Source: Antedon bifida (Eukaryota; Echinodermata; Crinoidea; Comatulida; Antedonidae). From it: a stretch of 64,000 nucleotides of DNA. The stretch's first letter is position 1. Every line of letters begins with the position of its first letter. The translations under genes and the position numbers were made by a program. The stretch is from contig OY727094.1 in the NCBI GenBank assembly GCA_963402885.1, forward strand, positions 11,162,501 through 11,226,500, in the 5' to 3' direction. Below are positions 139 through 34,493 of the stretch, piece by piece. The notes under the pieces are model-generated. The model searched no databases and was not told the origin of the DNA. It saw only the letters and a program-made list of their open reading frames with translations.

Positions 139-471
139 TCAGTTGCTTTGGTCTTTTTTATTTTCTTTTTTGGTCTCCTCTTTAACTTCTCCTGGTGCCG
201 AGTCACCATTGACTTGTTCACTCGGCGTGGCATCGCCATTGAGCTTTTCGGCGGCAGCTTCACCAGCTTTATCTTCTTCGATGACCGAATTTCCGTTTGG
301 CAAAGATGTAGATGGTGTTTCTGACTCAGTTCGTTTTTTCTTGTTTACAAAATGGTGGCTAATCATTGCAGCACACATACCTATTTCACCACCTAACACT
401 GCAGCCAGGACGACCTCTGCAAATGCTTCTCTACTTTTCTCTTCCGGGAGGTCAATAATCTGAAGACATGC
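139..471 (-). CDS. HMGCR: HMG-CoA reductase homologue, terminal coding exon
   Basis: Acceptor tttttatag| then ACLQIIDLPEEKSREAFAEV, matching the family ACLQML...LARIV block, then GGEIGMCAAMISHHFV with the catalytic His. After NKKKR comes a 60-residue low-complexity tail rich in Glu, Lys, Gly and Asn with an internal near-repeat (NGDATPSEQ / NGDSAPGEV). Stop at 139-141. The tail is not part of the usual fold. Confidence 0.92.
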   Translation of the reverse strand, partial: ACLQIIDLPEEKSREAFAEVVLAAVLGGEIGMCAAMISHHFVNKKKRTESETPSTSLPNGNSVIEEDKAGEAAAEKLNGDATPSEQVNGDSAPGEVKEETKKENKKDQSN

Positions 472-3400
472 CTATAAAAAAATATTTTTTGTAATCGTTA
501 TGTTAATTCAGTGGAAGGTACTAGTTAAGTAGATAGTGGCGACCTCCTGTTTTTACGATATGCCATGCGACTACCATGCTATTTAATCGTCTAACATACA
601 TTTTGCGCATGCTCATAATGCTTCTGAGCGCCCACATGGTATTCTAACTGGACAGCTGCGTACTGTATTCGAGTGGCACGTCATGAAAAACACAAATTAA
701 CATTTTTGCATATTGCTGTGATAGCAAACAGTTTATATCCCCGCTACTAACTTTGCTGATATTGGTTTGATTTAGCCGTATTTCTAAAATATCGAATCCA
801 ACGAATAGCTGTTATTTCAAAATATGTTGTCCAAATATGAACCTCGTAACCTATAGGGAATCTGGTATATTATATATCGTATATTTTGCCAATGACTCAG
901 CAGTATCAATTCCAGCAGTTCAGGAAATGCATATAATATGAACGTCTTAAATCTTTACTATATAAATAACTTGATGGTTATTAATTATCTTCCTGGAATC
1001 TACTTTTCTGATTGTCCTTGGAAATTACTTCAAACGCCAAAGATTATGATATCTATGATTTGCATTAGTTAAAGAAGATCCAAGATTATAGCGTGACATT
1101 TAATATAGGCCACTGTATGTTGAAACATTTCAATAAATTAATTCTTTCTAGTGGAAAATTATTTTGTATTACAGGATTCTTTGCAGCATTAAAGCAGCCC
1201 TCGAATTCTCACGTTAAGATAAGTTTAGTATTACAGTACCACTAGTATACCAGAACGTACGTATCACGAATTCCACCAATCACAAACGAATGATCATCAA
1301 ACTGTCGCCTGTGATTGGCCAAATTACTTGGGTTGTGTGTACGTCATTGTTTTGCGTCTTAGGCGTGGATATCAATATGTTTTCCACTTTGTCTATTGAT
1401 GTTTTGGGAACAGTGTCCTCACGGCCCTTATTATGTACAGATGAAGCCCCCATTAATGGACAGGTTTTGGAAACAGTGTCCTCACGGCCCTTATTATGTA
1501 CAGATGAAGCCCCCATTAATGGACAGGTTTTCACTTTACCTGTTGATGTTTTGGGAACAGTGTCCTCACGGCCCTTATTATGTACAGATGAAGCCCCCAT
1601 TAATGGACAGGTTTTCTAAAAATGTATTCACTTTACCTGTTGGCTTGGTAGCTTGGTTCCTCCTCCAGTTGTCCCAATCATCAGCGATGGCAGAGTAACA
1701 ATAACTCGAAGGTCACCGTTCTTGGTTAGCTTCATATCAGAGATCCCGACGTGTGATTCAACTACGGCGGCCGCATCCAGTCCACTGGCAACCAGTATTG
1801 CTGCGATCACCCTGGCAGATTGGTATGTCGAGCCTTCGAGATGAATGTTTGAAGAAACTGTATGTGAGGGCGCTTTGGAAGATGAGAAGCCCAAAACTAA
1901 GAACCAACGTTAGTAATAGCTTTGCGGTAAAATGTTAGTAAAACGTAAACCACCAAAATAAATAAAATTGTAAAAATAAATTAAAGAAGCGGATTTTCCT
2001 ACATTTCCGTTTTTAAATTAGTAGCATTATTTCCCGATATAATGGACAAATACAGATAATTGTTGATTTTTCCGAATTGTAAAGGCACTATTACAATTTT
2101 AGATAGGCCTATGATGTATAATATTCAAAATGGTTAACCCTGAAATAAGTCGATCTGAATGTAAATGGCTGCCAACTAAGTTTAAGTATTGGTGTTCCAT
2201 TTGAAAGCCTGCTTATCTTCCAACGTATCAGGGACAAGGTAATACTACTGATGTATGCCTATCTCTCAAATCTTACATACGACAACATGTTTACTGTATC
2301 ATAGACCAATTCGGTAATACAGTATCTCATGTGTATCACATGTGGTGAGGTTAAGGATCAGTTTATGGCCTCTGATACTAGGCTACATGCTGTATTACAT
2401 ATTTTTTTTAATACTGCGAAATCTAGATATCGGATGGAATCCGCCACTTTAAAATTTATTCAGATTTGTTATTAGCAGCAAACATAAAAGTTGACAATAA
2501 ACAAAACTTTAGTTATTAATTGCAATGCAAATAAAATGTACTATCCTGTTAGATCATCTAAAATAGATCAAATATAATTTGTTAGTATTCCCAGCATCTA
2601 AAGTCAAGGTGTATGAATCACCTTTCATTTTTCACATAGTAACATCGTTATTCATCTTGTTGACATAAATATGATGGTTATAACATTTGGGACAATCGGA
2701 TACGAGTATAACTAATGACTCATATTACTCTGGATAATGCTAAATAAATTGAAAACTGTTGTTAACTAAATGTTATTGTATGTCATAATACCGAGGGAGA
2801 AAATTAAGAACGCACGATTTGCAAGAAAATCACGCTTTTCAAATAGACATCCTAATATAATATAAGTAAATCGATTTTAATATCCTACTAAGATAACATA
2901 CCTAGATGAGTTCATTGCGTTATTACGGACCTGAATAAGGTCACGTTTTCAATGACGGACCTAGATAAGGCCATGTTGATAATACTGGATCTAGATTGTT
3001 ACGCATAGTGTTATTTATTGACATGAATGTGCGAGTGGTGCTTGTGTTACGTTAAGTACTAAAACGCAGGGCGAGTAGGTGCACTGGCTATCATAATGCA
3101 CATTACTATATCGTACCTAGGCCTACCTTATTCTTCAGAAAGTCTTAATTCTGACGGAAGACATGTGGACAATCCAGTAAACAAAATAAACCCCTCCATT
3201 ACACCATTAACAAGATTTATATTAAATGTGGCGGTATAGTCACATTATAAATAGTACAAATTTCGGGTTTGTTAAACAGAGCATTTTTAATCGATATCTC
3301 TCGATGCAATACACCCATGTGACTCATTGTACCAGACGAAGGATTAAAAGTTTCAATCGGTTCAACGCCGCGGCAATTGGTTCAACGCGGCGGCCAATGA

Positions 3401-6400
3401 TCATCTTCTACAGAGATTAGTGTTTTATAACTTTATCAATTATTCCTGAGCCTATAAATATGTGCATAGACAGTGCATGAGTAATAAATCAGTTAAGTAA
3501 TAATGAAATCATACCACAGGGGAATTAAGAGGAAAGGAACCAAAACAAAGAGAAAGTCGGAATAGATAGCATGCGAAATTGCAGATCATGCTACATTGAT
3601 CATAATGTCATCATGTAAGAAAGATAAGTCTAGATTAAATAAATGGCATCAATGATTTAATAACATAATGATCCCATAGTAAACTAGTAATCTGACGGTA
3701 TAAAAAAGCCAATGAAATTATGCTAACTAAAGAGGGCGGTATACTTAGTAAACAGCTTATTTTATACTGCCGAACTTTGGATAAAATAATAGATTTCTTT
3801 CTGAGGTTAAAATAAGCGTCAGTCATACCATTAGCCCACCACCACTACCAATGACAAGATAAGACACTCGCTTATATCTGTATACCTATTTATTTATGAT
3901 ACTAAAATGAGTAGCCTAAATTTACGCCCCTGCACTATTAGAAAAAGTCGAATAACAAAAAAACCCGGATGCACTCACGGGAAGAAAGATGTATTCTTGA
4001 CATGAAATGGGCCAATGGTTGTCTAAAGGCATGACAATGCCAATGTATTATATTGTCAGTATAGAATCTTTGCCAATACGATTCGATTACGCATACGTTT
4101 GAATTAAACGGATTAAGTAATCAAACTCTTTGAAAGAAATTATTATAGAAAATCACATACCTGCGGTATGAGAGATTAGTTGCCATGTCCTCGACTCTCT
4201 TGAAAAAGACGCCAACTTCTCGGCTGCAATTGTAAAGATAACAACAATTGTATAAATGATTCAATCTATATTTCGATGAAAAATGGCTACCTAAACGCTG
4301 CCAAATTATTCTGCTGATTAGAATTGATTATGGCGCAATCAAGATCGTTTACAATAACGGAAGCCATTTTGAGTTTCATAATAAAATGCACGAACTTTCA
4401 ATAATTTGCGCCTCAAAGCTTGAATGCCCATTGCAATACACATGTAGAGCATAATAATAATTAGTTAACTCTTATAACTTTCTATGTTGAGATCTATTCA
4501 AAATGTTTAACTTGGTCTATGCCTAAGCTTCCAGTGCCCATGGAGCGCAATTACCGCAATATCTTTGTCCAGTATCATCAGCAAATTCTGTAAAACAGTG
4601 CATAACATGCGACGTCTGTATCATAGTCTACAGACGTAGCATAACATTACAATTGATATATGGACCTGCATGGTGACACTGCATTACATAATTTGGACAA
4701 AAGTATGCCATATGTGCAGGACTAAAGAAATCGAGTGTGTATTGAAGGTGTCTCAACATTTATAAATATATTATACAATAACCACAATGTAGATACTATT
4801 ACAGAGTACGAGGACTAACAAGTGTTCCCAGGGGTCGACTTCCATGCAAATAATATAATTTGCTTATAACTTCTTCACAGAAGTTAAATTGATGAAAATT
4901 ACAGTGTTTCCTGATGCAGCGATGACCTTCTCTTACGCAATTATATATGAACTGATAGAAAGAAAACTAATCTCATAGACTTGTTGCCATTTTAGTAAAC
5001 ACACTTAATAATGGGTTTTCTATTTCAAAATCGAAATAGAACGTCGACTTAATTGACATTTATTTTAAATGTCAAATACAAAATGATAAGTTATAATAAA
5101 CCATGCATAGGCGTAATGACCATTACATTTTGTTTATGTAACTTTTGGGTGACATAAGACAATCATAATCTCTTAATTTACTAAAATAATGTTAGTGCAG
5201 TACATGATATAAATATGTGTAATCACAAAGTTACAAACGTATGTAGGCCTACACAATAAGTGACAAATCATATAAAAATTCCGTAGTAAGAAATGTTGGA
5301 TAACAAATAATTACTTATTTGGTTTCACTTACCTGACACGTGTAGTATCTCTTCTACCTTCTCCTTTGGGCAAACGACTTCTCCAGTTACATATACACCA
5401 CGTCCGTCTATCATCAGACTAGTTGCCGCTTGTCTGTTCCTAGCAAGTCCGACGTCAAGGTCCCAGCTACTCGGTTGGACGGGTGCTTCTTTTAAGATTG
5501 ACTCCATAGCTTCCTTTGTAGCATAAGTAGAGATATTCTGACCAACTGCTTCTCCAGTATCGAAGTACCAACGAGAGTACACACAGTTGCCATGCACAGA
5601 GTGTTCGAGTTTGACCAGAACAGCCTCTTCAACAACGGCAATTGCATTGGTTTTGACAGACTCAAATGTGGCTGGTAGGCCTAGCCATTCATTAAACTTC
5701 ACAGCTAAACGAATACTTTCAAAGTGGAAGATCGGCGCACTCTGGACTTGTTTCTTGATGACTACTGACTCAACACCACCGCACATATTGATCAACTGAC
5801 ATCCTCTGTTGCAGGTTCCGACTAAAGACGTTTCTGTTGTTGCCAATGGGACTGTGTATTTTCCATTTGCATGACTACCGTTAACTTGTACCTGAACTGC
5901 CCCTACTGGAACTTTCACCGTGCCAATGTAATTTTCGATGTTACTTTTGAAGGTGTTGGAATCGTCTTTTTCGTTTAGAGCATCAAGATTGACTTTGCTC
6001 AGAATGGATGCTTCTATATATTCCTTCCGGGTCTCTACTTCAGATGGGGTCTGTGTTTGCCTAAAACAAATAATAGTAACTTTTATTTAACTTGTAGGTC
6101 TAAGTTCAAAGCTTATTTAAATAGCAATTATAAATACAAATTGTGTATAAGCATGTTCCGATTCACGTTTCTTAAATACACATGATATATTGGTTGTTTA
6201 ATTAATAATTGTACTTTTTTATCTTCCTTTACCGTCTACTGCATTAAAACTAACATCACTCCATCACGCAACCGATTCAACATCAAATCAATATTAGGAC
6301 GTCTTTCGCAGGACGAGAAAGGGTGTTACGTCTTAAAGGCCTACACCACTGTTATGGGATTACGAAGTGGTATGCCTAAATAACAGTTACGAATACGAAT

Positions 6401-9400
6401 AGAACTTTATTGCAATCAAACGAAAGATTGAAGTTTAACAAAAGCGTTTCACTCAGAAAAATAAAATGCAATATACAAATATAAAAGACATTCAGAAATG
6501 TAGAACATACAATCAAAACATTAAAACAAAATTACAATTAAAAATCACTTATTATAAAAACAATAAATATAAAATTCAAATTGAATTGTTCTACAACAAT
6601 ACACGATTGTACATAATTTCGTTTTTGGGGTTAACATAAAACAGTCGTGACCTGTCAAATCAAGCGCTTTCCCAGCAAAAATATAATGTATATTATTTAA
6701 TTCGATGTCTAGGCCTATTTAACAAGATGGCCGGCTCTAAATTTATAAAACTACAGGAACACATTTTATTACTGCACATGAACTCTATCACGATAAACAT
6801 TTCCTTTTAACAGTAACTGACATTTAGATTTTCTATATGCTTCCTTTACACATTCGGACTACTGTCGATGATAGGCCTACAGTAGACCATTCAAAATCAC
6901 GTGGTAGATATATTAGATCTACCACGTGATTTGGAAAGAATATGTGTTAACTTCTAATACTAGTTTCTTTTTATGTTTTCAAAATGACTGTAATTTGATT
7001 CTTCAGAAGTTAGTTTTACTTGTATACCTTTAGTTTGATTTGTACATTTGAATGTCATTGAATTAACTGCAAAATGTTAAAATGTGTACATTTTCACAGG
7101 TCCACGCTATACTATTTTATTGTAAATGGGTGAAAATGTCACTCGTTGTTTAGAGTGAAACTTTTGAATGATTTTAAAGAGTGGTATTAGAATCACTTTT
7201 GAAAGAGTGAAAACCACTCTTTGAAAACAGTTGAGCGATTCACTCTTTTCAAAGAGTGGTTTCAGTCTTTTAATAGTGGTCTTTACTATCACTCTTAAAA
7301 AGAGTGACTATAGTTACTCTAAAAGAGTGGGTTTCACTCCTTTACATTAAGAGAGTAGGAGTTCATGTGGGAGGGTTTCTTAGTGTGGTACCATGAGGCA
7401 TAGGAAAAAAGTTTTTCTTGACTTCGTCTCTTAGATATAACAAGAACTTATTGTTTGTTTATTGTTTGTTTGTTTATTTTTATACTGGGCGACCTCTTCA
7501 GTCAAAGACTGGTCGATAAAAAATAATTGAAATATGTTACGGCGCACCACTCGATCGACTACGCATCGAGTCGAGTGAAACGTCATCTGCGCAAGCTAAA
7601 CTGTTCAGTTACACGTGGCTACCATCAACAGCGATCACATCGGTTAGAGCCTAATGCCTATTTTGACAACTCTAAAAACAGGGTAAAGTGAACATTTCTC
7701 TATTTTGGCGCAATTCAAATATACTGTAGTTATAATATCATTTCGAGGTCCATTCGTTTTATTTATTTAGGCGTCAACGCCATGACTATATTAAATAAGA
7801 GTGGACTAAAAAATACATAAATATAATAAAATACAAATCTCAATACCAAGAAATCAGTTATTGATTTATTTCATTCAATTGAAATCAGGAAAACACCACA
7901 TAAGAGGGATACTTAAAATAGACTGTTAGATCTGTATGATACTGAATAGTATTGTACACATTTATATCACTATTCTTATTCTTGCATATAAATGCTTAAG
8001 TATAATCTATTTAAAATGTAAACTTAAATAAGAATCAAAACAATTAGGGCATTGTATTGAAGTGGTCCTCTACAACATACTCCTACATGTTAAGTCCCGC
8101 GCATCTGGCGTGATTCTTACACACCTAAAATCTGACGCTTTTTCATAATATAATCTCAAGTTTTTTGTTGTTTTTTTTTTCAAATTACTTGAAAACTTCA
8201 GAATCCTAGGCGATAACAACAACGTCAATAATGTTGACGAGTATGTACTGAATTAGGGAAATTTCACAGCAGGACGTTTTGACCCTGTCGGCCGGCACGA
8301 AACAATGATTATTGAGGGTTAGGGGCAAAGTCATAATTTGGAAATCTCAAGCCAGCAGCTACCTAGCCTCAAACTGTTGATATATGTATGCTGCATAAAC
8401 CTAAACTGAAACAATAACTTTAGTTACAAATAGTTCAATTATATCATTTTTAGTTTGTGAATGATGTGTATTTTTAAAATGTTTTGTGTATTGTCAATCA
8501 ATCATTATATGAAATCATTTATTTCGGAAACGTAAAGTAAATCACATCCTAGAATGACTGTACATCCTCATGAGGCAGGATTTATATAAATAGTATGTAG
8601 GTCTTTGCCTTCCGCATAATTGTGTACATTGTGTTTGTGTTATGGATGATACATTGCCCTTATGCTAACACTAATGACTACTGAATTGCTACTAAACGTT
8701 AAATATATTACCCCATGGGTAAGGTATTTCTTATCTATACCCTGAGAGTGTGAGGTCATTGTGATGGATGGTACACACACACCCTGACCTGAGGTGAAGA
8801 CAGTTATGATTGATTATCTTCTCTTCTAAAGTGTGCGAGGTCGTCATGGCGGATATGGTAAGCACAAACTGTGTCCTAATCTAACTCGATACTTTCCCGA
8901 AGTCTCTTTTTGATGCTGTTAGTATTACGAGCGCCACCAGTCAGCGTTTTGATTCTCGTCTGTAAACGCAATGTGTGCCAAAATGTTTACACTAGGCGAA
9001 TTTGTTTGCGTGAATCGAAAGCGTCGCCTTATATACGCATACGTATTCATGTTTCCACCTTCCAAATCCCTCTCTATGCGACGAATTCTAGGTCCTTGAA
9101 TTTTTCGCTTTAAATTGTTTCTACTTTTTGCGAAGCGGAAAATTGCGCAACCAATCAGAGCTCAGGAAATGAGCTATGACGCGTTTATGAGCACTCATGA
9201 ATGCGAATCTAAAGGCTATCTTTTCTGATTTTCAAGGAAAAAAATGTTTATTTTGATTTGATGAACATTGAAATCGCAGCTAATCGCTGTTGTGGAAAAG
9301 GGTTGCGCGATATTTATTTCTGCGAAGAAACGTTGGATTTGCGCGCGCGAACAAATTCGCCTAGTGTTCCTTTGTTTGAAGATGTTGCTCGATGGTGAGT

Positions 9401-12400
9401 GTGTGAGGTCATTAAGGATGGATGATCTACACATCCTGAATGTGTGTTATGATGAATGAACACACATAATTTACTTATTGTTGATGGTGTAGTATCGTCC
9501 ACTTTACTTGTTTAGGCATAATAATGCTTTACATGCCATACCTTTCGTCAAAACTTTTAAACGTGAAACATGGCTTTGAGGAAATTATTGTGGTTTAATG
9601 ATAGGCAATAAACTGTCACTCTCTATTGATAAAACTATAAACACATTTTAACTAGGTGAATAATTTCATAATCGTTTTAGGCACACTTTGCCCGCCATAG
9701 CTTCAGTTAAAACTTCAAAAGAAACATCGCTTTGAGGCAATAATTATCGTGTAAAGCATAGGCAATAAATTGTAACTATCTATTGATAAACTATAAACAC
9801 AATTGAATTAGCTGAATACTTTCATAATCGTTTAATACGTCGTATTATATAGAATCTCTATCCCTGTCATACTTGAAATTCCTCACCAGAATATTTTTAC
9901 AAGGTCAGTCACTGTCAAAAGGCACTCGTAGGAAATATAGTACAAAGGAATATAATACTACACCCACCCATCATCGCCTACATAACTGGATCATAAATCA
10001 ATAGAACTTACACACACTGTTATACCTACACAATTTGTTGGATTATCGATACTGGAATTTTTTGTTTCCATTTCTATAGTAAACATTCCATTAAAAGAAG
10101 TGATTATTATAAACAGTACAATGTCACATGGTAATTTGGTTCCAGTAGAAGAACCTTTTAACAGTTACGAACTCGAAAGTCAACGATTGATGATTGCCAA
10201 TTTGGGGCTCAAACTAAATCATTGTTTGTCCCAATACATCGGATTTTACAAACAAAACGAGTTCGTATGTCGTCAAAACTCCGATCTATCTTCACGTGTT
10301 TCAGAAATACATCCGCTACAACGTTATACCACAATGTTTGAATGTAAAAAGTTTGTTCTATCAATTGATAGCTACTGTATCGATAGATATCACAAATTGT
10401 TGCTATTCGAACAATGATACATTTTGAGAACCTATTTGGTATTGTTGCCACAGCTATTGATTGTATTTTTGGAAATGAAATAATACAATTAAAAAAAAAA
10501 GGTATTTAATTAAATTAATGTTATTTTTGTTACTGTAAATTGCGTCGGATTATGATCTGTATTCATCTGTTTATATTTAAGTACTGCAATGACATTGGTA
10601 TAAAGGTAGGCCTATAATAATTATGCAGATAATTACACACAATTAATAATGAGGAAAGGGCTTTTTTAACATTTGTTATTGTTAAGGAATTCTTTACCTT
10701 AATAAAGACTTTAATGCAAAATCGGCAATCTATTCATTGGACGAGAAATACTTTACTAGTTTTCTGGACTCAAGTAATTAATGCTAAATAAAATCTAAAC
10801 TAATATGATTATTTAGACCTAATGCGGTCTAGAAGCCACCTGTGGATGGGCCCCAATCGAATACTCACAGGAGAATACTGCACATTCCATTGATCGACGT
10901 TTTAATGGAAAGATCGTATGCATGACGGAATGTGGGTCATAAACATTCGCACATATTATATGAGCTAGAAAATTGACCCAGTATACTTGCGTGGTTCGTG
11001 GGGAAGAAATGAAATAACAAACACAACCTGTGTCCCCATAATAGTTCATAAAAAACTTAAAAAAAAAAAAATAATCGGTATAAACGCCAGGCTATTGATC
11101 TGTAGTTCCCCGGGTGTAGGTCCCACTCGAGAATTAGCCTACTTACGTATAAACAGGTGTATAAATACAAAATTACGCCAGAGTATAGATCTGACCAATT
11201 TTACTCAACTATTTTATACAAAGCTACTCCACAGTAATAAATTATTATACGAATAAAATATTTAGTTTATACAAAAAGTTTGGTTCTTATAATAAGTTTC
11301 GAATGATTCATTCTTCTTCATTTTTGTAATTATTTACATTACAAAGATTATTTAAGAAGACGACAATATCGTCATATAAATTGACAACAATTATATAGGT
11401 TACGTACGAAGATTGCTGAAAAAAGCATTGGAAATAGGGTGAATTTGGAGGACCATTTGATTTAAGCAAGGCTATCATTGCCTTGGTTCAAATAAACAAA
11501 AAATGATCAATGAAATAGATAGTATATATACCTAGCAATACCTTAATAGTTTTTACCTATAAATTATTTAAAATAATATCACAATATTCATAGACAGTTT
11601 CCAAACAGGCGTTTAATTCATTGAAATGGTTTAAGTTTTACGGAATTTAACATTTTTACTTAAAAGATAAGATTATGAAAACAATAATAACAATAATCAG
11701 TTAAAATGACAGGTACGACGGTAATAAAGCGCCTGTTATACTATATAATGCAATATGCCTCATATTAATACAGTACCTGAAGGTCATGTCATGCAGAAAT
11801 ATGACCCATGAAGCGCTCATTCATTGCACTTTAAATTATCTGAAAGACAACACGCCTCTGTATCATACCCCTGCTGAAGTATGCCCAGAACTCTACATTA
11901 AATACTTTATAACATATGACCTAATTTTCCCACGCTAAACTGGCCTTAGAGGAAAATACCGGAGCAGAAAGTGGTAATAAATATTCCAATGTTTAAACGT
12001 TCAACAAATAGTAGTTGATCAGGAGGTTTGATCAAGGAATTTGGAAAAGACCTTACAATTTAGATAAGATACTAAAAGGTAAGGCCTCTCGATATCAACA
12101 GGTTACCGTCCAGAAACATGCGGCGCACACAGTGCGCAAATAACTATAGTGTGTCAACAAACATTATGTAACGAAATTTTGTAATAAGGCCTCAATTTGT
12201 TCTCCAAGAATTTTCTCTTTTCTTAAAAATGTTTATGATTCATTATTTATGAAACACTCATCGGGTTATTTCATTAAAAGGGCATTGCTCCGTACAATAC
12301 AGGTCATGTGACTTTTTAAGATGATTAATTCGTCACAATCTTAAAATACATATGTAACAAAATCTTTTAGATTTTTTTTTTATACTTTTCTGTGTCACAA

Positions 12401-15400
12401 TTCACTAATTGAAGTAGATTTAACAGACGTCAAAGAGCTTCCGTGCACTCATCATCAATGTCAAATAGCGCCAGCCTATTAACATAAAAATATAACTATT
12501 TTGTCTTTGTTTTAACCCATATTAAAGTACTGTAGGCACAGAACAAAAACATATAAAGAGATATAAATATAAATATGATTAAGGCACAAAAACATAAATT
12601 AAAAACCAACAAAAATATAACGAAGAAGCCTGTTACGGGAAGTAATCAACAGGTCAAGTACCTCTAGAGCGGTCAGGACCCTCTTACAAAATTATAAGTT
12701 ATTTTTTGTATTTTAATGATAATATTTTTTTAATTGTGTATAACAAATTATTTTATTTATTACATTTGACGACATTTGGAACAACAGCAACAACTTAGTC
12801 ACGAACGAACAAGAAATTCGTATTCTAAAGTTCTTTCATAGGAAAGTACTAGACTACTGTAGCTAGATTTCTGTTTACGAGTGTAAAATAATAAAATACA
12901 TGGTTAAATTGGTGAATTCTAAACCCGATTGTAACGAATACATTTCAATCACAGATACTTAACAGTAGACATCAGTCATTTAACAATGTAATTTCCGAAT
13001 TCATTTCTTTTTTAATCTAATAGACCTTGCATTAACCAGTCGTCGAAAGACGGCTTTGGTGATGTTATAATTAATTACTTGTAAATTAATGTTATTTTGA
13101 TTGTTATGATTATTACCAATTATTAAGTAATGACGAAGTTCTATTTCTAAACTCATCTACCTTATTAGATCAGATGATTAGATGAATTATTTAAATAATT
13201 TATCCATGTTAATATAAAGTGACAGACTATTTATTTAAAATTATATAGGACTAAAGAAAAAACAACTATAGGGAGACATAAACCTTATTTTTAGAAATCG
13301 GAAGGTGACCCCCTTTTAGTTTCAAAATATTTATTAGTAGCTATAAAAGTAGCTTATAATAAATGAAAATTATGTTATGAGTTTATTTATTTTGTTTATT
13401 TTACTTGTGAGTTTCCCAATTGGTACATAAGTATATTTATTTATTATCAATACTGTATTTTTGTTTTCGGGGCATGGTCAATATTGGAATTAAAAAGTGC
13501 GTTTTTCGCGCGTATACACTGTTTGCGTACAATATTGCCTTCTTTTTGATACGAAAGACAGAGAAAATGGTCAATCTTACAATAATCGTTTCAGACTTGT
13601 TCAATGGTTTTAAGGGAGGGCTTCATTAAATATTTTGTGAGAATCTTTATAACTTAGTATAGATAAGTAGCAGTATAACGGCACCCTACTCAGGTGTGTG
13701 GGGTTAAAATTACATACAATTACATACAGTTTGTACACTTAATAAGGCGGCTACTTTTTGTGTATTTCTTTTCATTTAAATCAATTATGAGAAGGTCAAC
13801 ATATTATACTGTGGGTTGATTAGTGTCGGGAGGGAGGCGGGTAACATTCATCTATTTTTAGACCAGTCTTCAGAAAAAGAAGCCCTTGCGAAAAATAACA
13901 GAGAGTACTTTATAAACAAAAAATAACATGAAGCATAAATTAATTTGTTGGCTTCTTTCATGAAACCAACGTGTGCATACAAAAGTCAAACGATTTGTTT
14001 TTGGAAATTTCTACTCTTAGTCTAAACATAAAAACAGATTACTGAACTTGTATTTGTATGTATATGTAGGAAAAAAGGAATAATGGAATTAATAAAAATA
14101 ATAGAATCGTAGTAGGAAATTTGGAAAATACACAGGAAACATTCATTCCACTACACAGTAAGTGAATATTTTGAGGGTCTTGGAAATTTTACAGGAAGTT
14201 TAAAAAATCACAATAAAGTTCAGGTTGGCTGATGTAGACCTATATGCCGGATATCCTGGTTACAAGTGGCATTAGGTTAAGGTCTGTTGCAGACGACACC
14301 ATGTTCTTCTTCCGTTCTTGTTGATTTTATCTACTACTAAAACTTAAGGGCCTATTTCATAATGCTCTCATTCTCTCTTATTTTTAGTCGCATGCGTGCA
14401 ACGCGACTCTACGGCTCACTTGGTTGGTTGGTCGGATGGTCGGTCGGTCGGTAAACACTAACTCAAAATTGAGTACGCGACTGCAGCCATGTATGATGGC
14501 CTTGTTAAACTAAGAGCCTATGTAGGAGGATAAGCGAAAAGAGCTACGGTATAAACTATGCAGGTGGTAATAATCACCTACTCCCTCTTCTTTAAGTATA
14601 TAACAAAACGACACCGTCTTAAGTTCCGTGAAATGGAACTGGGGTTGTGAATGTACACTTAAAGCATATTAATATATCTATTGATGACATTGAACCGAAT
14701 TAAACTGATAATGATTTATCATTTATTGATAATATTCATCAAATGTATTGATCACGTGATTTTAATATTACAGACGTGCTGCACGTTGTTTTCATTGTCT
14801 CACTTGACGCAGTGACCCAGTTTCGTATAAAGCTAGAACGCAAAGCACACTCGATACTCGTACTGCGTTTTTCTCATCATAATTATTATTTAGATGGCGA
14901 TAAACAATCCCGCAGTATCGTGTCTCCTGCTAATAACCTTCGTCCCATAGCTTATCTTTTATGGGTCTCTCTCATCTTTATTCATTCATTAGTGTATGCA
15001 TATATTTTGGTTTACAATAATTTAATTTATAATAATAATTATTATATAATATAATAAAATTATAGATCAAGTTAAGGCAACACACTTCGTCCCATAGCTT
15101 CAGACATAGCCTACTCTACGATAATTGACAGTAGGTTCTAAAGCAAGAAATCGACGAGCAACGCATGTAACTTGACAAATCAAATCATAATCACTGATCC
15201 GACCTTCTGTATATAACCATATTATCCGAAAAAAATCTACTAACGCCCGCCAACTGTAACATTCGCGTATAATAGTCTGACGGCGTAATTAGCACATGAG
15301 TAAGCGAATAATACTGCTGTTAGAAATGATAGAGAATTAATTTAATTAAAAATATGACCCATTTGTAGAACTTATATCAAGTCGGACGTTTTCATGACAT

Positions 15401-17953
15401 CCATAGATTATGATAACAAGTTTGACAAACGATAGCGGAAACTGTTGTGCTGGCAATTCGCCATATTCAGTCGTAATGCATACGAGTTCGCATGAGTTTT
15501 TACAAGGAAATTGCAATAAACTTAATCATACGATACCTTATAAAACAATATCTAACAAGTTTAAAAACACTATGTATTTATTTTTAGGAAACGTAATACT
15601 GTAACGATATTACTTTAAACGTTCCGTATTTTTAGTTTTACATTTTGGTTTGTTACACACCTTATTGTTACTTTAATTTTAAAAAACCTTAATTAGAATA
15701 AAATAATCCTAATAATCATACAAATTGATATGCCATAATCAAGTGAAGGTGCAATAAACTACCCGGTAGAACAAACGTTGTCAATATAATAATAATAAAG
15801 TAGCATCATTTTTAAAGGGTTAATATAGTTAGTATAATGAAATAACTTATAAATAAGAGAGAAAAATCTCTCGTAGGATTCCAATGCAGGCAATACCTTT
15901 GTAAAGCTCTGTCTACACTATCAAACTAGTTTAACAAAAAAAGTTCGATGTGCCTAAAATGCCCATAACATCATCATGGCAATGGGAACATCACATTTGT
16001 TACCATATAAAATTTGATAGTGAGACAGAGCTTTAGTATTATATACTAATATGAATATTTTAAAAGCTGTGGAACGTTTCAAATAACTTTCGTTACAAAA
16101 GTACCAATAAGCGTAAGCGCTCATAGGGCCTACTTTGCGCGAATAAACGCTGCAGTTCGAATACAGCCACATACTGTCACTACTGCACTTGTTTAGATCA
16201 TTAATAGTATATAAGTGCTGGCAAAAGATTATGATAAAATATAACCAAACTTGAAACCTGGCTAATTAATACAATTCTATAAATAGAAATCGAAATCGAA
16301 TCTATCAAAAAAAATTATCCAATGCGTCTATGACGGAACAACGAACTCAAGGGAGAGCCGCGCAATAACCAGGAAGATGATGGTATCCGTGGGTAGAGAA
16401 AAGTCTGATATTATAGTAAATAAAGTAAAGTACTTAAGTATCGATATAAATGTATTGGTTTAATTTTAATAGAAACACACTTAATAAAACAATGAAAAGG
16501 TAAAGAAACCAATTTTAGTTAAAGTAAAAAAAAATTTTTTAATAATTGCCGTACAAAAAATACGACTACTGTAACTTGTTTGGGTTGTAAGTTAATTAAA
16601 TTAACAAAAATCAGCATTTTTAGCAATAAAAGTTACATACAAAATCAATCTAATTATTTCAAGCATGGAGGTATAAAATAATTATTTTATACCTCCATGT
16701 TTCAAGTAGCATGCAATTTGAAATTGTTTGAATTAAATGGTTTTGTTGTAGGCTTACTCATGTCATCGACATCAGTCTCACTCCTCACCACGTGTACCTA
16801 CATGTAGATTATAGTTTTGAAAATTAATCTTATGCACGCCACATATTAAATAACGTCAGATTAAACCGTAACGAAAGTTAACTTTTACTATAATAATATG
16901 ATAGATTACAAGAACACGCTTGAATTGTCCCTAATTCAACTATTAAGGTCATGGAACCACAACACAGATTAACAACAACAATATACAAACACGTAGGTGG
17001 CAAACATATTAAATTCTTTACATTTTGTGGTATAATAATTGTCAAAATGGAGGTATTTTGTTATTAACTTTTTATTTACGGCCTTCATATTATGGAATCC
17101 ATCGCAATATTCGATACTTGTCATAAGTTGTTTCAAGGCCGCGAATTTTGCTATTGGACATGACGTCATATGTAACGTAACTTTATCAAAATGTTGCAGA
17201 TGGGAAAAAAAGGAAATTTGACGCAACCAATATGTCAAATTGGTTTAAAAATCTGTGTTTACACTACCGTCTATTAATATATAAATCTACTGCAGACTAT
17301 CGCTACCCACCCATCATCTAGTTCCGATTACACTGGGTCTCAACAGGGTCAGGTCTATTATAACTGAGTCTAATGCCTATACGAATACGTTACATTGTTG
17401 AATGCACATTGAAATTGTGCTGATTTGTAAAACTCAAAAGCATACAAAAAATAATTTGCTGACAGGAAAAGTTTAACATTGCATGAGTAAAAGCTACACG
17501 AATTCAAATGTATAACAAATGGGCCTAATATCAGAGAAGATTACGTAATGTAATTTTAATGAATTATAATTAAGAACAGGGAGGGACAGTTATGCTGGTG
17601 GTTAGGGGAGAGGGTTGAACGCGAGGGAGCATCAACCGTTGGAGAAAATACAGCAACCACATAATGTTGGAACCACCTGGAATGTAATAAATTTTATTTT
17701 CATCACTACTTCTCGTGTCATCTTCATCACCGTCATACTCACGCCACCATTACGTAGGCCTAACAGTATATTGCATGTAGGATAGAAAGTATTATTTCTA
17801 TAGAGACGTAGAAGAAACTAAGGATGTTCGTTATTTAAAAGAAACATGATGAAGAACTTACGTTTCAGCAAGTGACGTCATACTACCTCTGTGCTTATCT
17901 TTATCCTTCTTCTTCTTCGGTCGTAACTTATTGATAAACTTTGACGACGGCAT
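139..17953 (-). CDS. HMGCR: Divergent soluble HMG-CoA reductase homologue (4 coding exons)
   Basis: Join of complement(17862..17953, 5333..6060, 1637..1896, 139..471); 1413 bp, 470 residues plus stop. All introns are GT-AG and junction phases are 2, 1 and 0, each matched by the next exon. Family signatures in order: ENYIG (res. 73-77, cf. ENVIG of class I enzymes), PLATTETSLVGTCNRGC (res. 102-118, with the catalytic Glu at 107), EAVGQN (NADP loop, usually DAMGMN), NRQAATSLMIDGRG (res. 239-252, cf. DKKPAAINWIEGRGK), GLDAAA (catalytic Asp 314), GTTGGGT (348-354), QQACLQ, and GGEIGMCAAMISHHF with His 399/400. The family enzyme converts HMG-CoA to mevalonate with NADPH. Human HMGCR is about 890 residues with an N-terminal sterol-sensing membrane domain; this model has only about 70 residues before the catalytic core, so it should be cytosolic. 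Oddities: Arg240 where the active-site Lys is expected, and a charged C-terminal extension. Activity is therefore uncertain; the family assignment is secure. Confidence 0.9.
472..1636 (-). other. HMGCR-homologue intron 3
   Basis: GT-AG intron of 1165 bp in phase 0. Apart from the tandem repeat at 1398-1612 I see only AT-rich sequence with no further exon-like signal. Confidence 0.8.
1398..1612. repeat. In-frame minisatellite in HMGCR-homologue intron 3
   Basis: Three copies of a unit beginning GTGTCCTCACGGCCC at 1413, 1476 and 1560. Spacings are 63 and 84 bp, both multiples of three, so the array stays open on both strands (plus reading contains TDEAPINGQV, minus reading ASSVHNKGRED). It starts about 25 bp beyond the exon 3 donor. 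Either a simple intronic minisatellite or derived from a coding repeat. Confidence 0.85.
1637..1896 (-). CDS. HMGCR: HMG-CoA reductase homologue, coding exon 3
   Basis: Acceptor ggttcttag| and donor CAACAG|gtaaag. Two bases complete a codon begun in exon 2 (Val274), then 86 codons to phase 0. Carries GLDAAA (catalytic Asp314), LPSLMIGTTGGGTKLPSQQ and the start of QQACLQ, which continues in exon 4. Against the human sequence recalled from memory, the stretch between EEILHV and GLDAAA is only about three residues short, so no intervening exon appears to be missing. The Lys expected in the NKNLVGS motif has only one weak counterpart (Lys281). Confidence 0.9.
4161..4223 (-). CDS. Candidate second coding exon, unidentified nested gene
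   Basis: 63 bp between acceptor tttacaattgcag| and donor CGCAG|gtatgt. In the phase dictated by the upstream exon it reads REVGVFFKRVEDMATNLSYR, an amphipathic helix-like stretch, and leaves two bases. It does not fit the phase of the HMG-CoA reductase exons, so it is not part of that gene. The next exon was not identified. Confidence 0.4.
4291..4367 (-). CDS. Candidate first coding exon, unidentified nested gene
   Basis: ATG at 4367 opens 25 codons (MASVIVNDLDCAIINSNQQN...) ending at a donor (GCGTTTAG|gtagcc) with two leftover bases. It joins in phase to the exon at 4161-4223. I do not recognise the protein. The composition is protein-like rather than AT-noise, but later exons were not found, so this could be a short or decayed gene inside intron 2 of the HMG-CoA reductase homologue, same strand. 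Confidence 0.4.
5333..6060 (-). CDS. HMGCR: HMG-CoA reductase homologue, coding exon 2
   Basis: Acceptor ttgttttag| at 6061 and donor TCAG|gtaagt at 5332. Encodes residues 31-273, the HMG-CoA and NADPH-binding part: dimer-type ENYIG, VPVGAV, ATTET with the catalytic Glu, CNRGC, the EAVGQN cofactor loop and IDGRG. The exon continues N-terminal of the long open stretch that ends at 5918, which matters because ENYIG lies there. Confidence 0.92.
6894..6932. repeat. Perfect hairpin with an E-box in each arm
   Basis: Two perfect 16-bp arms (AAATCACGTGGTAGAT at 6894-6909 and its reverse complement at 6917-6932) around a 7-bp loop. Each arm holds CACGTG, the core E-box for bHLH factors. It sits about 0.8 kb inside intron 1. 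Confidence 0.85.
7126..7350. repeat. AAAGAGTG / CACTCTTT inverted short-repeat tract
   Basis: More than ten occurrences of AGAGTG or CACTCT within about 220 bp, in alternating orientation, typically as CACTCTTT...AAAGAGTG pairs. Looks like a degenerate palindromic satellite or part of a MITE; no coding content. Confidence 0.6.
7445..7535 (-). mobile_element. Non-LTR retroelement 3' tail (fragment)
   Basis: On the minus strand GAAGAGGTCGCCCAG is followed by an A-rich AAACAAACAAACAAT tail, the usual layout of a SINE or LINE 3' end. No coding sequence is visible upstream of it, so only the tail survives or it is a SINE. Confidence 0.45.
8743..9441. repeat. Short GAGTGTGAGGTCATT-type repeats flanking a MITE
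   Basis: Copies at about 8743-8785, 8830-8873 and 9396-9441 share GTGTGAGGTCAT and GGATGG/GGATAT blocks. The MITE at 8989-9367 lies between the second and third copies, so the local duplication may be older than, or related to, the insertion. Confidence 0.55.
8989..9367. mobile_element. MITE with 22-bp terminal inverted repeats
   Basis: Left end ACACTAGGCGAATTTGTT at 8989 and its reverse complement ending at 9367; 21 of 22 terminal bases pair. The 379-bp interior is rich in further GCGAA/TTCGC motifs in both orientations and has no ORF. Target-site duplication is not clear, so the superfamily is unassigned. Confidence 0.8.
9520..9840. repeat. Two diverged tandem copies of about 170 bp
   Basis: Blocks around 9570-9680 and 9731-9832 share GCTTTGAGG, AGGCAATAAA, CTATTGATAAA, CTATAAACACA and TTTCATAATCGTTT in the same order. 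No coding potential. Confidence 0.7.
10080..10417 (+). CDS. Exon-like ORF, unidentified protein
   Basis: A strong acceptor (tttgtttccatttctatag|, ending 10079) is followed by an uninterrupted frame of 111 codons to a stop at 10415-10417. An internal ATG at 10121 has MSHGNLVPVEEPFNSYELES and a Leu/Glu/Gln-rich helical middle, ending in HKLLLFEQ. An A-rich run follows at 10490. I do not recognise the family. It lies on the strand opposite to the HMG-CoA reductase homologue, inside its first intron. It could be a terminal exon of a nested gene, a retroposed fragment, or chance. Confidence 0.35.
14388..14455. repeat. AGTCGC-hairpin plus GGTC/GGTT microsatellite
   Basis: A stem (AGTCGC...GCGACTCTA) followed by GGTTGGTTGGTCGG repeats. 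The same layout in reverse orientation occurs at about 38.80-38.94 and 48.80-48.92 kb, so this is one dispersed family. Confidence 0.6.
15904..16033. mobile_element. 130-bp MITE, TA target site
   Basis: Termini AAGCTCTGTCTACACTATCA and its near-perfect reverse complement (GATAGTGAGACAGAGCTT), flanked by TA at 15902-15903 and 16034-16035. The size and TA duplication fit a Tc1/mariner-type non-autonomous element. I recall very similar termini in echinoderm sequence, which I cannot verify here. Confidence 0.85.
16664..16699. repeat. Perfect 36-bp palindrome
   Basis: CATGGAGGTATAAAATAA followed immediately by its exact reverse complement, no loop. No poly-T run follows, so it does not read as a terminator; it may be a very short inverted-repeat element relic. 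Confidence 0.9.
17862..17953 (-). CDS. HMGCR: HMG-CoA reductase homologue, coding exon 1
   Basis: Start codon at 17953; encodes 30 codons plus two bases, ending at a consensus donor (GAAAC|gtaagt). The peptide is short and polybasic (MPSSKFINKLRPKKKKDKDK, res. 1-20) and has no hydrophobic segment. The two leftover bases join the first base of exon 2 to make Thr31. The start was chosen because it is the first ATG upstream of a donor in the required phase; a further non-coding 5' exon cannot be excluded. Confidence 0.75.
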
Positions 17954-19587: not shown

Positions 19588-21085
19588 AAGTAATGTTTAG
19601 CCCTGCTGCTCTGTCGTAATGTTTAGCCCTGTTGCTCTGTCGTAATGTTTAGCCCTGTTGCTCTGTCGTAATGTTTAGCCCTGTTGTTCTGTCATAATGT
19701 TTAGGCCGCGCTTCTTTGTCGTAATGTTTAGCCCTGTTGCTCTGTCGTAATGTTTAGGCCGCGCTTCTTTGTCGTAATGTTTAGCCCTGCTGCTCTGTTG
19801 TAATGTTTACTCCCTATTGCTCTGTCGTAATGTTTAGTCCTGCTGCTCTGTCGTTATGTTTAGCCCTGCTGCTCTGTCGTACAGTTTAGGCCTGCTGCTG
19901 CTCTGTCGTAATGTTTAGCCCTGCACTGCTCTACTCGTAATGTTTAGCCCTGCTGCTCTGTCGTAATGTTTAGCCCTGTTGCTCTGTCGTAATGGTTAGT
20001 CCTGCTGCTCTGTCGTTATGTTTAGCCCTGCTGCCCTGTCGTACAGTTTAGGCCTGCTGCTCTGTCGTAATGTTTAGCCCTGCGCTGCTCTGTCGTAATA
20101 TTTAGCCCTGCTTCTCTGTCGTAATGTTTAGCCCTGCTGCTCTGTCGTACTGTTTAGCCCTGTTGCTCTGTCATAATGTTTAGCCCTGCTGCTCTGTCGT
20201 AATGTTTAGCCCTGCTGCTCTGTCGTAATATTTAGCCCTGCTGCTCTGTCGTAATGTTCACCCTGCTGCTCTGTCATAATGTTTAGCCCTGTTGCTCTGT
20301 CATAATGTTTAGGCCGCGCTTCTTTGTCGTAATGTTTAGCCCTGCTGCTCTGTCGTACTGTTTAGCCTGCTGCTCTGTCGTAATATTTAGCGCTGCTGCT
20401 CTGTCGTAATGTTTAGCCCTGCTGCTCTGTCGTAATGTTTAGCCCTGCTGCTCTGTCGTAATATTTAGCCCTGCTGCTCTGTCGTAATGTTCACCCTGCT
20501 GCTCTGTCATAATGTTTAGCCCTGTTGCTCTGTCATAATGTTTAACCCTGCTGCTCTGTCGTAATGTTTAGCCCTGCTGCTCTGTCGTAATGTTTAACCC
20601 TGCTGCTCTGTCGTAATATTTAGCCCTGTTGCTCTGTCGTACTGTTTAGCCTGCTGTTCTGTCGTAATATTTAGCCCTGCTGCTCTGTCGTAATGTTTAA
20701 CCCTGCTGCTCTGTCGTAATGTTTAGCCCTGTTGCTCTGTCGTAATATTTAGCGCTGCTGCTCTGTCGTAATGTTTAACCCTGCTGCTCTGTCATAATGA
20801 GGCCGCGCTTCTTTGTCGTAATGTTTAGCCCTGCTGTTCTCTCATAATAATTTAGCCCTGTTGCTCTGTCGTACTGTTTAGCCTGCTGCTCTGTCGTAAT
20901 ATTTAGCCCTGCTGCTCTGTCGTAATGTTTAACCCTGTTGCTCTGTCGTAATGTTTAGCCTGCTGCTCTGTCGTAATATTTAGCCCTGCTGCTCTGTCGT
21001 AATGTTTAACCCTGTTGCTCTGTCGTAATGGTTAGCCCTGCTGCTCTGTCGTAATATTTAGCCCTGATGCTCTGTCGTAATGTTT
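19588..21085. repeat. 1.5-kb minisatellite, 26-bp unit
   Basis: Roughly 55-58 tandem copies of TGTTTAGCCCTGCTGCTCTG+TCGTAA with substitutions and occasional 1-3 bp indels. A minority unit type (GGCCGCGCTTCTTTGTCG) recurs at about 19.70, 19.76, 20.31 and 20.80 kb. The unit length is not a multiple of three and TAA recurs in each unit, so it is non-coding. Confidence 0.97.
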
Positions 21086-21139
21086 AGGCATTTCTGTCTA
21101 TAGTGTTAAGACAAGGGCATCTCCCTTTTAAATTAGTTA

Positions 21140-22373: not shown

Positions 22374-25085
22374 GTAAGTAACGAACTAATTTCTATAATA
22401 CTATTCAAAACAAGTCATTAGATTTGTTATATTATTATAGATTATTTTACAATAGGTAGGCCTACTTTTTTATATGTTTGTACAGTATTACTGTTGTCAC
22501 CGTCTCGACATCGAAAGTTTAATTAGGCCCAAAGCCTGATACCTTCTTTCCATTACACAACACAACAACTCCAACTTTATTGCGCATTCGTAGGATTCAG
22601 AAAAGCCCATATAAATGAATATGTAAACAAATCCTGCGATTAATACACTGGGAGACTAACGGCTATTGATTAACCTAGTTTGAGTTGCTGTTTCATGTGT
22701 GGGGCACATTTTAAGATAGACAATTATGTTATCATACTAACCTAAATTAAATATACCACAATGACTACAACACTTCAATCTTGCAATTTAATGAAAAATA
22801 TAAAAAAGTAATTATGTGTGTAAATAATTAAGGTAAACTTGGCGTATATTATAACACTGTCTCTCTAAATTAAGATTGCGCGATGTAGGCCTACTATGAC
22901 TAAAGCAAACTGTGATCGACCAGGCTTCCTAATCACGGCGACATTCACTTCATCCTCTAATTTAAAGCGTATTAATATTATTTCCTGTCTGTATCAACAA
23001 TGACGTATCCATCATAACCCGAAACTGACATTATATTACTATTTTTGTCAGTTGAGGCTGCAATGTTTGTATCGGTGACACAGTATTATGAATATCATTA
23101 GTTTAGTGTTTGAATTTTGAGTGTGAGTGACCTGTATAGAATGTGTGTTTCAATCAACCTTTAGGTTATATTTCCATATTTTGCAAGATTTTAATTAATG
23201 AAAGTTTATGACTAAATCCAATACTAAGCCTTTCATTTACAGAGCGAATGCTGTAATCGCGCGAATCAGAGTGTTGGTTTGTGCGCATGCGTATTCACAT
23301 TTCTGTGGAACATAAAAGAAATCCGTCAGTGATCAAGAATGTTCGATTGAAAAGGCTTACAAAGTGTAGCCTAGAATATTTTTGTGAACTAATTATTCAT
23401 TAATTCATTAATTTCCCTTAAATCGGATAGTACATCCATAATTATACAAAAACATACAAAACAAAACAAAAGATTTCACCAGGAAATTAACAATAGCATC
23501 TTACACAAAAACAATCTAAAATACCAATTTTCACCAACGCTCATGCAGGTTGGATTGTGCAAGTACATTTAACTAGTCAATTACCGTATTTATTCGAATA
23601 AACACCCCGCTTTGAATAAACGCTTCCCTCGGAAAAAAAACGCCAAAAAATAGAACATCATTTTCAATAAACACCCCTTCAAACAAACGCCTCGGGTCTT
23701 TATATTTTCCTTAATAAATGCCGCTCCACATGCATATACACACACAATTGTGTGTAACCCCACCCCTCTCCCCTTCTAAAAAAACCTCTCCCACAATAAA
23801 CGCCCGACGAATAAATACGGTAGTAAATATTTAATGATTCTTTTAATCTGTATAATATCGAATTTGTATTTTCAGCAGAAGTCACGGGATAAAAACTAGT
23901 TACGTCATTTCCAGTAATATAGAGCAGAAGAATGTCCGAAAACGTCTGGATGGCAATAGCAATTCGAAACAGGTTATGAAACATTTATTGAAGGATCCTA
24001 TTGAAGGTAGAGACACTATCAAACAATGCAAGACATCCACGCGAATTGTTTTCTTGAAGACTCACAAAACCGGAAGTTCTACAGTGGCATCTATTTTTCA
24101 AAGGTTTGGATTTTCGCACAATTTAAGTTTTGTTATTCCAAGACATGGTCATATGTTCAGCATTACTGAATTATTCAACAGGAGTTTTGCTGAACCTAAT
24201 CAGAAGTACGATATGCTGGTGAACCACGTTCGATACAATCGGAAAGAAATGGATACCGTGATGAAACCAGACACAAAGTACATCACCATTTTACGCGACC
24301 CGGCAACGCAAGCAGAATCAATGTTTGGTTATTTTAAAATATATAAATATCTTAATATGTCAACAAATTCAAACCCTTTTGCGAGGTTTTTACACAGACC
24401 TCAGCACTATATGAATGAATACAAGAGTTTCAAAATGCGGGAACATTTACAAAATCCAACATTATATGATTTAGGCTTTGAGACTTCTAAGTATTTAAAT
24501 CTTACTCAAATTCAGTACTTTATAGAAAATCTATCCCATGAATTTGATCTGGTACTCTTGCAAGAATATTTTAACGAGTCGCTTATCTTACTTAAAAAGC
24601 TTTTGTGTTGGGACATGGATGATATTGTATACATTAGTAAAGGAGTACGAATAAACAAATTGCGCTTTAGTCAATCAGATCGTCTGAAAAAGAAAGCACG
24701 TGACTGGAACTCCGCAGACACAATATTATACGATTATTTCAATAAAACATTTTGGAAAAAAGTTTCAGAGTACGGTTCAGATTTTGAAAAGGATTTAAAT
24801 TTGTTTGAAAGGAAATTGAATGAAACGTTTTACAATTGTATAATTTCAGACGAAAAGCGGAAAGTGTTTCATAGGTCGTATACATATGCATTAAAATCAG
24901 GATCAGGAATTAAGTGTGAAATGTTGTTATGGACAGATATAATGTTTACTGGAAAGATAAAGAACGCCAGTATGATAGACCACAGAGGCAGTTTGATGTC
25001 TGCAGGTTGTGACAACACAATCTGTTTATTAGTTAAAGTAGTTAATACCGCGTTCACATATCTTGGGTCGCTCTCGATCCGTTAA
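22246..25085 (+). CDS. Galactose-3-O-sulfotransferase family protein (2 exons)
   Basis: Join 22246..22373, 23876..25085; 445 residues, typical for the family. A Golgi type II membrane enzyme by homology: short cytosolic start, signal anchor at about residues 9-25 (VISCILVVLLFESIVYY), a stem, then the sulfotransferase fold. The PAPS 5'-phosphosulfate loop is FLKTHKTGSSTV (about res. 102-113). HVRYN and the 3'-phosphate motif TILRDPATQAESMFGYF (about res. 180-196) follow. Several N-glycosylation sequons (for example NMS, NLT, NET) fit a luminal protein. Family members transfer sulfate from PAPS to the 3-OH of galactose in glycolipids or glycans; the acceptor here cannot be told from sequence. 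Intron phase 2 matches. It is divergent from the HMG-CoA reductase homologue. Confidence 0.92.
22374..23875 (+). other. GAL3ST-family intron
   Basis: 1.5-kb phase-2 intron; contains a MITE at 23584-23820 ending about 55 bp before the acceptor. No other structure of note. Confidence 0.8.
23584..23820. mobile_element. MITE with CCGTATTTATTCG ends, TA target site
   Basis: CCGTATTTATTCG at 23584 and the reverse complement CGAATAAATACGG ending at 23820, flanked by TA on both sides. Subterminal AATAAACGCC-type motifs recur inside. Non-coding; lies directly upstream of the GAL3ST exon 2 acceptor. Confidence 0.8.
23876..25085 (+). CDS. GAL3ST-family gene, exon 2
   Basis: Begins after ttgtattttcag| at 23875. 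The tandem acceptor CAGCAG means exon start 23876 or 23879; both keep the frame, differing by one residue (Asn-Arg versus Lys). The frame is open well upstream of the internal ATG at 23976, which corresponds to residue 77, so translation should not begin there. All catalytic motifs lie in this exon. Stop TAA at 25083-25085. Confidence 0.92.
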
Positions 25086-34039: not shown

Positions 34040-34493
34040 GAGAACATTGACAACTTTAGACAGCCTTATATTTAGACAATCCTGTGAGAAGTGACAATTT
34101 TAGAAAATTGTGTACAAACAACAATTTATGCACACATATTTAAAAAAAAATATTTAAAGAATTTAATTTTTAGTGGCGGCCATTTTGAAATCCAAGACGG
34201 CCGACAGATTATCGCTTTACATAGTTAAGATTGTATAATGGGTACAGTAATACCATCAAAACAGACTTGTTCCACATTCATAATTTGTATTATTGGTGAT
34301 ATTTTGATTTTTAATAGGGTTATTTGAATGTTGGCGGCCATCTTGAATTTGGTCCTTTAAATGTCTTTTGAAAAAATGGCAACATATTTTTTTTCATTCC
34401 TTATGTTATCAAGATAAGAAATAAAGTCAAAGTTTGCTTTTAACAAAAAATATACACGACATTCATATAAACGACATACCAGCCTACACTTAT

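Follow-up and report, generated by a model that had tools for sequence, protein, structure and literature searches.

A soluble HMG-CoA reductase homologue of the crinoid Antedon bifida as a probable pseudoenzyme of an FcrA-type lineage

The gene in the window and the canonical HMGCR

The window analysed here is a stretch of 64,000 nucleotides of the Antedon bifida genome (C7:11162501-11226500), and the genome searched is the 315.6-Mb assembly in 27 contigs. Contig C27 of this assembly (15,844 bases, 26.9% GC) is mitochondrial: its cox1 match has six TGA codons as its sole in-frame stops, nad1, nad2 and nad6 are encoded on the other strand from cox1, and a putative nad4L was placed between nad4 and nad5, the gene names being assigned from the translations. 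Some crinoids, including Antedon, have lost the cox1-to-nad6 gene block retained in the four remaining echinoderm classes (PMC7947835), and a mitogenome of 15,872 bp with approximately 72% A+T has been described from a crinoid (PMC9176372); these features point to a crinoid. The window carries W7, a minus-strand gene (139-17953) whose five coding exons are spliced into 478 codons with zero stops and whose product was identified by profile search as a homologue of HMG-CoA reductase (HMGR), with a PF00368 match of 261 bits (cut-off 27) over residues 39-410. All splice sites of the gene are intact, and its exons are given below; named active-site residues here and throughout are numbered as in human HMGCR, for which 5 of 5 reference positions agree.

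W7 exon 1, 17862-17953, minus strand: 92 nt, opening with the start codon and closing at a phase-2 donor; its 30 codons plus 2 nt encode a lysine-rich N terminus; assignment tentative
W7 exon 2, 5333-6060, minus strand: 728 nt with a PF00368 match, encoding the greater part of the catalytic core
W7 exon 3, 4161-4223, minus strand: 63-nt micro-exon with AG/GT splice sites
W7 exon 4, 1637-1857, minus strand: 221 nt, PF00368 match, region of Asp767 (kept) and region of His752 and Asn755 (changed)
W7 exon 5, 139-471, minus strand: 333 nt, encoding the last catalytic helix, in which Lys stands in place of His866; stop codon at 139-141

Exon 2 holds the TTE motif (with Glu559), the cofactor loop EAVGQN and an altered DKK site (N-R-Q), and its phase-2 acceptor and phase-1 donor are common to all four paralogues of W7, as is a micro-exon, 60 or 63 nt long, in the corresponding position and flanked by phase 1 on both sides. 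Beyond the last catalytic helix, exon 5 encodes a charged C-terminal tail of approximately 65 residues. A preliminary description of this locus had proposed a soluble HMG-CoA reductase homologue of 470 residues, built from four exons with agreeing phases. The homology is borne out by the profile score, and the intron phases (2, 1, 1 and 0) indeed agree, being those of all five genes of the family, but the 63-nt exon at 4161-4223 had been missed, so that the corrected model has five exons and 478 residues. On our reconstruction, the earlier length would follow if the micro-exon was skipped (-21) and the fourth exon was extended by 39 nt through an acceptor lying further upstream (+13).

Exon 1, which lies 11.8 kb upstream, is the weakest part of the model: no paralogue has a similar first exon, and its tentative assignment is based on an open frame and a donor. 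The exon begins with an ATG, has an in-frame TGA two codons upstream and ends in a GTAAGT donor whose phase fits; ATG-to-donor open reading frames of this quality number one on the antisense strand of the 64 kb (exon 1 itself) and two on the sense strand. Two repeats lie within or close to the gene. The intron that separates exon 4 from exon 5 holds, at 1401-1619, a repeated 63-base unit that is open in several frames (repeat search gave 2.1 copies, at 1401-1531, and inspection by eye one more), and a minisatellite at 19590-21087 (26-base unit, 57 copies) is located approximately 1.6 kb upstream of exon 1. Elsewhere in the window the following features were observed:

23856-25085, plus strand: Galactose-3-O-sulfotransferase open reading frame, a single open stretch (PF06990, 222 bits)
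40189-41316, minus strand: reverse transcriptase open reading frame (PF00078, 76 bits)
34040-40128 and 44052-50114: direct repeat of approximately 6 kb, same orientation, 10 kb apart, 99.1% identity; either a recent duplication or an assembly artefact
32826-33443 and 43434-44051: further repeated piece of 618 bases, 99.5% identity

No membrane-domain exon, and hence no upstream exon for membrane spans of the kind considered in the preliminary description, was found in the window when searched with five pieces (not the whole) of the animal's own HMGCR membrane domain (best E = 0.084), while all five pieces were recovered in their source locus as a positive control (E = 5.1e-15 or better). A genome-wide scan for the sterol-sensing domain likewise returned nothing near the window, a weak result since the scan also missed the split domain of the canonical gene on contig C15. 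Additionally, the strongest 19-residue hydrophobic stretch of W7 is a core helix common to the paralogues. W7 is a real gene, and these results support a soluble product, in which no membrane domain was found.

The canonical HMGCR, for which a genome search had been suggested, was located at C15:21.304-21.313 Mb. It consists of many exons, carries the motif DAMGMNM and possesses sterol-sensing-domain exons, the joined membrane-exon pieces matching that domain with 34.7 bits (cut-off 22.3). The PF00368 catalytic fold is common to W7 and the canonical animal enzyme, which belongs to class I and bears a sterol-sensing domain, whereas W7 differs in having no detectable membrane domain, no DAMGMN, other introns and a place in a separate clade; none of the three C15 catalytic-domain introns examined coincides with the three introns that follow exon 2 in the W7 family. 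The profiles of class II HMGR indicate that W7 is not of that class, as it scored 233.4 bits with TIGR00533 (NADPH type, cut-off 441.8) and 32.1 bits with TIGR00532 (degradative type, cut-off 259.95).

Five related genes, their first exons and constraint on W7

PF00368 gave 20 exon-level matches in the genome, which correspond to the many-exon C15 gene and to five few-exon genes, the latter forming the family to which W7 belongs:

W7: contig C7, in the window, minus strand
C10a and C10b: near C10:3.44 and 3.45 Mb, in tandem
C8a: C8:24.43 Mb
C8b: C8:6.59 Mb (6.588-6.592)

Identity to C10a amounts to 64% for C10b, 46% for C8a, 69% for C8b and 42% for W7. The first exons of C10a, C10b, C8b and C8a have phase-2 ends, and the N termini that they encode contain 5 to 7 Arg/Lys and at most one acidic residue among the first 30 positions (counted, for C10b and C8b, from an internal Met of our choosing), and with moderate confidence they are predicted to be mitochondrial presequences. 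Amphipathicity exceeded that of shuffled sequences in two of the four (C8a, 0.023; C10b, 0.008), the values for C10a and C8b being 0.71 and 0.23, while likeness above noise was confined to the pair C10a-C8b (score 77, versus 14-32 for the other pairs and 39-42 for unrelated open reading frames of the window); the donor of the C8a first exon is weak (score 0.9). The first 30 residues of W7 include 10 Arg/Lys and 3 acidic residues.

These first exons bear on the possibility, which we regard as rather unlikely, that exon 1 of W7 was mis-assigned and a presequence exon missed, in which case W7 would be an inactive partner subunit of mitochondrial paralogues. Such a role would accord with the presequence-like first exons of four of the five genes and with the lack of a counterpart to W7 exon 1, and, because the active sites of HMGR form between subunits, mixed oligomers are conceivable. 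Nevertheless, no presequence-like exon stood out on the antisense strand upstream of W7 exon 2 (best score 42, versus 39 in the sense-strand control), and in a scan for ATG-to-donor frames that reached approximately 25 kb, exon 1 took the top rank. The reading that we prefer is that of a W7 protein with no recognisable presequence, which would probably reside in the cytosol or nucleus.

The comparison of W7 with C10a over 386 codons yielded identities of 0.565, 0.702 and 0.298 at codon positions 1, 2 and 3, respectively, a pattern that suggests constraint at the protein level and argues against a plain pseudogene, although, as two paralogues are compared, part of the signal belongs to the C10a lineage. 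Neutral simulations (200 each) produced at least 9 stops at full divergence and at least 2 at half, and W7 has none. A decaying, unexpressed duplicate would be in keeping with the lost catalytic residues and the long branch of W7 (both described below) and with the similar decay seen in C8b, which has kept its presequence-like exon, lacks Lys691/692, has a GC splice donor, appears to be frame-shifted locally in its cofactor loop, and would represent a second inactive-looking copy beside W7. This explanation for W7 is nonetheless very unlikely in view of 478 stop-free codons, splice sites that are all intact and the constraint across codon positions.

Bacterial relatives and descent

Relatives were collected by scanning one genome per species, which gave 143, of which the best 80 were kept and 20 of those were used in a smaller tree. 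The hosts among these best 80 of 143 are cyanobacteria, proteobacteria, planctomycetes, verrucomicrobia and others. All 80 have Gln at human position 657, within a loop of the type GDA(A/S)GQN, where the canonical enzymes aligned have Met. Viral relatives were absent from 73 pattern matches, and the 36 plasmid records with relatives are uninformative on origin. By BLASTP, each of the five animal genes scored higher with all 80 kept bacterial relatives than with the C15 gene or human HMGCR: C8a reached 261-309 bits with the bacteria, versus 213 (C15) and 188 (human), and W7 reached 184-239 bits, versus 156 and 137, respectively. With the archaeal enzyme, however, W7 scored 191, more than with the weakest of its bacterial matches (184).

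The tree of 88 rows unites the five animal genes in one clade (100/99) and splits the GQN-bearing set from archaeal, human and C15 HMGR (100/100); in the 28-row tree both the five-gene clade and the split from canonical HMGR received 100/100. Forcing the five genes together with animal HMGCR, which was represented by the C15 and human sequences alone, cost 44 log units in the 28-row set and was rejected (p-AU 0.0045). The preliminary description had regarded the gene as a paralogue of animal HMGCR, a view that does not hold, given that W7 lies in a clade on the bacterial side. W7 forms the longest end branch in both trees, and such long branches make its exact place unsure. The bacterial row nearest the animal clade (L060) joins it weakly (84/47, 28-row tree). 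The placement of the animal genes relative to the bacterial rows is tentative in these trees, whose eukaryotic members are the crinoid genes and human HMGCR, and the family may stem from transfer or from old inheritance.

Among 21 hosts hand-picked from the 80, an HMG-CoA synthase domain was found in 3 and DXR in 17, from which most of the hosts searched seem not to use the protein for mevalonate; the host of L060 possesses the synthase and gave no DXR match, and the protein may have a mevalonate role there. Downstream of the bacterial gene, PPDK-type genes were counted at 53 of 80 loci, DUF3419/BtaA-type genes at 30 and UbiA-type genes at 20, by crude calling of open reading frames in up to 4 kb of flank and single-linkage clustering, the Pfam names being taken from example proteins of three loci (L045, L033 and L059). 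At L045:3827-8710 and similar loci, the HMGR-like gene is followed by UbiA-type, PPDK_N/PEP-utilizer and DUF3419 (BtaA-type) genes, and a UbiA-type partner was present in 6 of 16 genomes searched, these 16 of the 80 having been chosen mostly for their apparent lack of such a neighbour. This array may be considered a candidate lipid operon, for which our literature search found no published name. The animal genome gave no match to DUF3419 or PPDK_N, and a UbiA search of it, run without a positive control in an animal, was empty. As the partner domains were not found, the bacterial neighbourhood was rejected as a guide to animal function, and the crinoid genes are not accounted for by the operon.

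Active-site residues and probable function

The catalytic tetrad (Glu559, Lys691, Asp767 and His866) is present, together with Lys692, Arg590, His752 and Asn755, in all 80 of the kept bacterial relatives. It is intact in C8a, C10a and C10b, reads E, R, D, K in W7, and is not retained in C8b. The changes in W7 extend through the catalytic and substrate sites (Arg590Ser, Asp690Asn, Lys691Arg, Lys692Gln, His752Gln, Asn755Arg and His866Lys) and the cofactor site (Ser626Val, Arg627Glu and Asp653Glu), while Glu559, Asp767, Arg568, Gly656 and Asn658 are kept, as is the Gly-Gln-Asn of the cofactor loop. Some of these changes also occur in tetrad-intact copies, since C8a carries Arg692 and Gln752 despite its intact tetrad. 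Furthermore, the cofactor site of C10a and C10b carries Asn at positions 627 and 653, which would cloud their activity, and the changes in these three genes mean that even the tetrad-intact copies are not textbook enzymes.

Three further positions distinguish the family from canonical HMGR. Ser684 is replaced by Glu or Asp in 80 of 80 bacteria and by Asp or Glu in four of the five animal copies (Asn in C8b), Leu862 by Phe in all 80 bacteria and all five animal copies, and Lys735, in a gapped stretch, mostly by Met or Val in the bacteria, with a replacement in 5 of 5 animal copies as well; W7 has Asp, Phe and, within that gapped stretch, Glu at 684, 862 and 735, respectively. By sequence, the best solved relative of C10a is the soluble class I HMGR of PDB entry 6hr7 (208 bits, versus 177 for 2q1l/1dq8, presumably human HMGR structures), which we take to be an archaeal HMGR that makes mevalonate and which differs from the family in keeping DAMGMNM, Ser684, Lys735 and Leu862.

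Without Lys691 and His866, HMG-CoA reduction by W7 is unlikely. The preliminary description had envisaged a cytosolic enzyme beyond the reach of sterol-triggered degradation, which as an HMG-CoA reductase would make mevalonate; the HMGR fold, the failure to find a sterol-sensing domain and the retention of Glu559 and Asp767 would suit such an enzyme. It is, however, highly improbable, as it is confronted by Lys691Arg, His866Lys, Arg590Ser and Asn755Arg, by the FcrA-type pocket residues at 684 and 862, by the AU test against an origin from animal HMGCR, and by the separate canonical HMGCR on C15. What survives of that description is its other suggestion, namely that the protein has a different job. 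Annotation by homology would probably label these genes HMG-CoA reductase, and the inferences on mevalonate and statins that such a label invites are contradicted by the residues.

PMC11948995 describes FcrA as a class I HMGR homologue that, in assays, uses NADPH to convert fatty acyl-CoA of at least 14 carbons to the alcohol; HMG-CoA is not reduced, and 10 uM simvastatin did not inhibit the enzyme. FcrA is marked there by changes at Ser684, at Leu862 and at a third position, a lysine that is given in print as Lys795; as human position 795 is Cys in the fragment aligned here, Lys735 was taken to be the lysine meant (PMC11948995). The changes at 684, 735 and 862 had been tabulated in this study before that residue list was known. 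FcrA and the crinoid family accordingly have in common the fold, an acidic residue at 684, a bulky residue at 862 and a replaced Lys735, and the hosts of FcrA, like the bacterial hosts surveyed here, are mostly without mevalonate genes (PMC11948995). Since the trees contain no characterised FcrA sequence and place the five genes on the same side as the 80 (or 20) bacterial relatives, membership of the FcrA branch rests on the diagnostic residues and on that description. W7 differs from FcrA in being an animal gene with introns, in the loss of Lys691 and His866, and in its N terminus, which is rich in lysine, and its charged tail. Eukaryotic members of the FcrA branch are not new as such, and the available text of PMC11948995 neither names nor characterises them. 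A search of the literature on soluble or mitochondrial HMGR and on HMGR in echinoderms or crinoids found no account of such a family.

On balance, the sequence evidence makes it reasonably probable that W7 is a pseudoenzyme of the FcrA lineage, a branch represented in this crinoid by five intron-bearing genes. By descent W7 would fall in the FcrA-type branch (that of bacterial fatty acyl-CoA reductase) of the class I HMGR homologues. C8a, C10a and C10b, with their intact tetrad, would be imported into mitochondria and there convert acyl-CoA thioesters to alcohols with NADPH, and among the five genes they are the likeliest to encode a functional acyl-CoA reductase. W7 would have been kept by selection as a pseudoenzyme that acts by binding, be it of a CoA or acyl-CoA ligand or of a protein partner, rather than by reduction; that it binds a ligand is a guess. 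Alternatively, W7 may still be an enzyme with altered chemistry, with Arg691 or Lys866 acting as substitutes or with acyl-CoA hydrolysed or otherwise handled without reduction. The conserved core, the retained Glu559, Asp767 and Gly-Gln-Asn of the cofactor loop, and the constraint described above speak for this, but seven changed residues in the catalytic and substrate sites, three more in the cofactor site and the longest branch of the family render it unlikely. If the tetrad-intact paralogues are active, W7 offers a natural test of the role of the HMGR fold after the loss of Lys691 and His866.

A broader scenario, put forward with considerable doubt, is that the crinoid took up a bacterial-type FcrA gene, added introns and mitochondrial presequences and expanded it into a family producing fatty alcohols in mitochondria, of which W7 would be a dead member, re-targeted so as to sense acyl-CoA outside them. 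The reaction proposed for the tetrad-intact paralogues is that of the animal fatty acyl-CoA reductase FAR (Sterile domain), whose fold is unrelated to that of HMGR. Were the intact paralogues active, the animal could make fatty alcohols by a second route, perhaps mitochondrial and unrelated to that of the known FAR enzymes. One Sterile-domain (FAR-type) locus was found in the animal genome (C12:22.19 Mb), as was one locus with a WS/DGAT domain of the wax ester synthase type (C1:14631607-14631948, plus strand, 43.8 bits, cut-off 23.6), and with both types present a use for fatty alcohols is possible.
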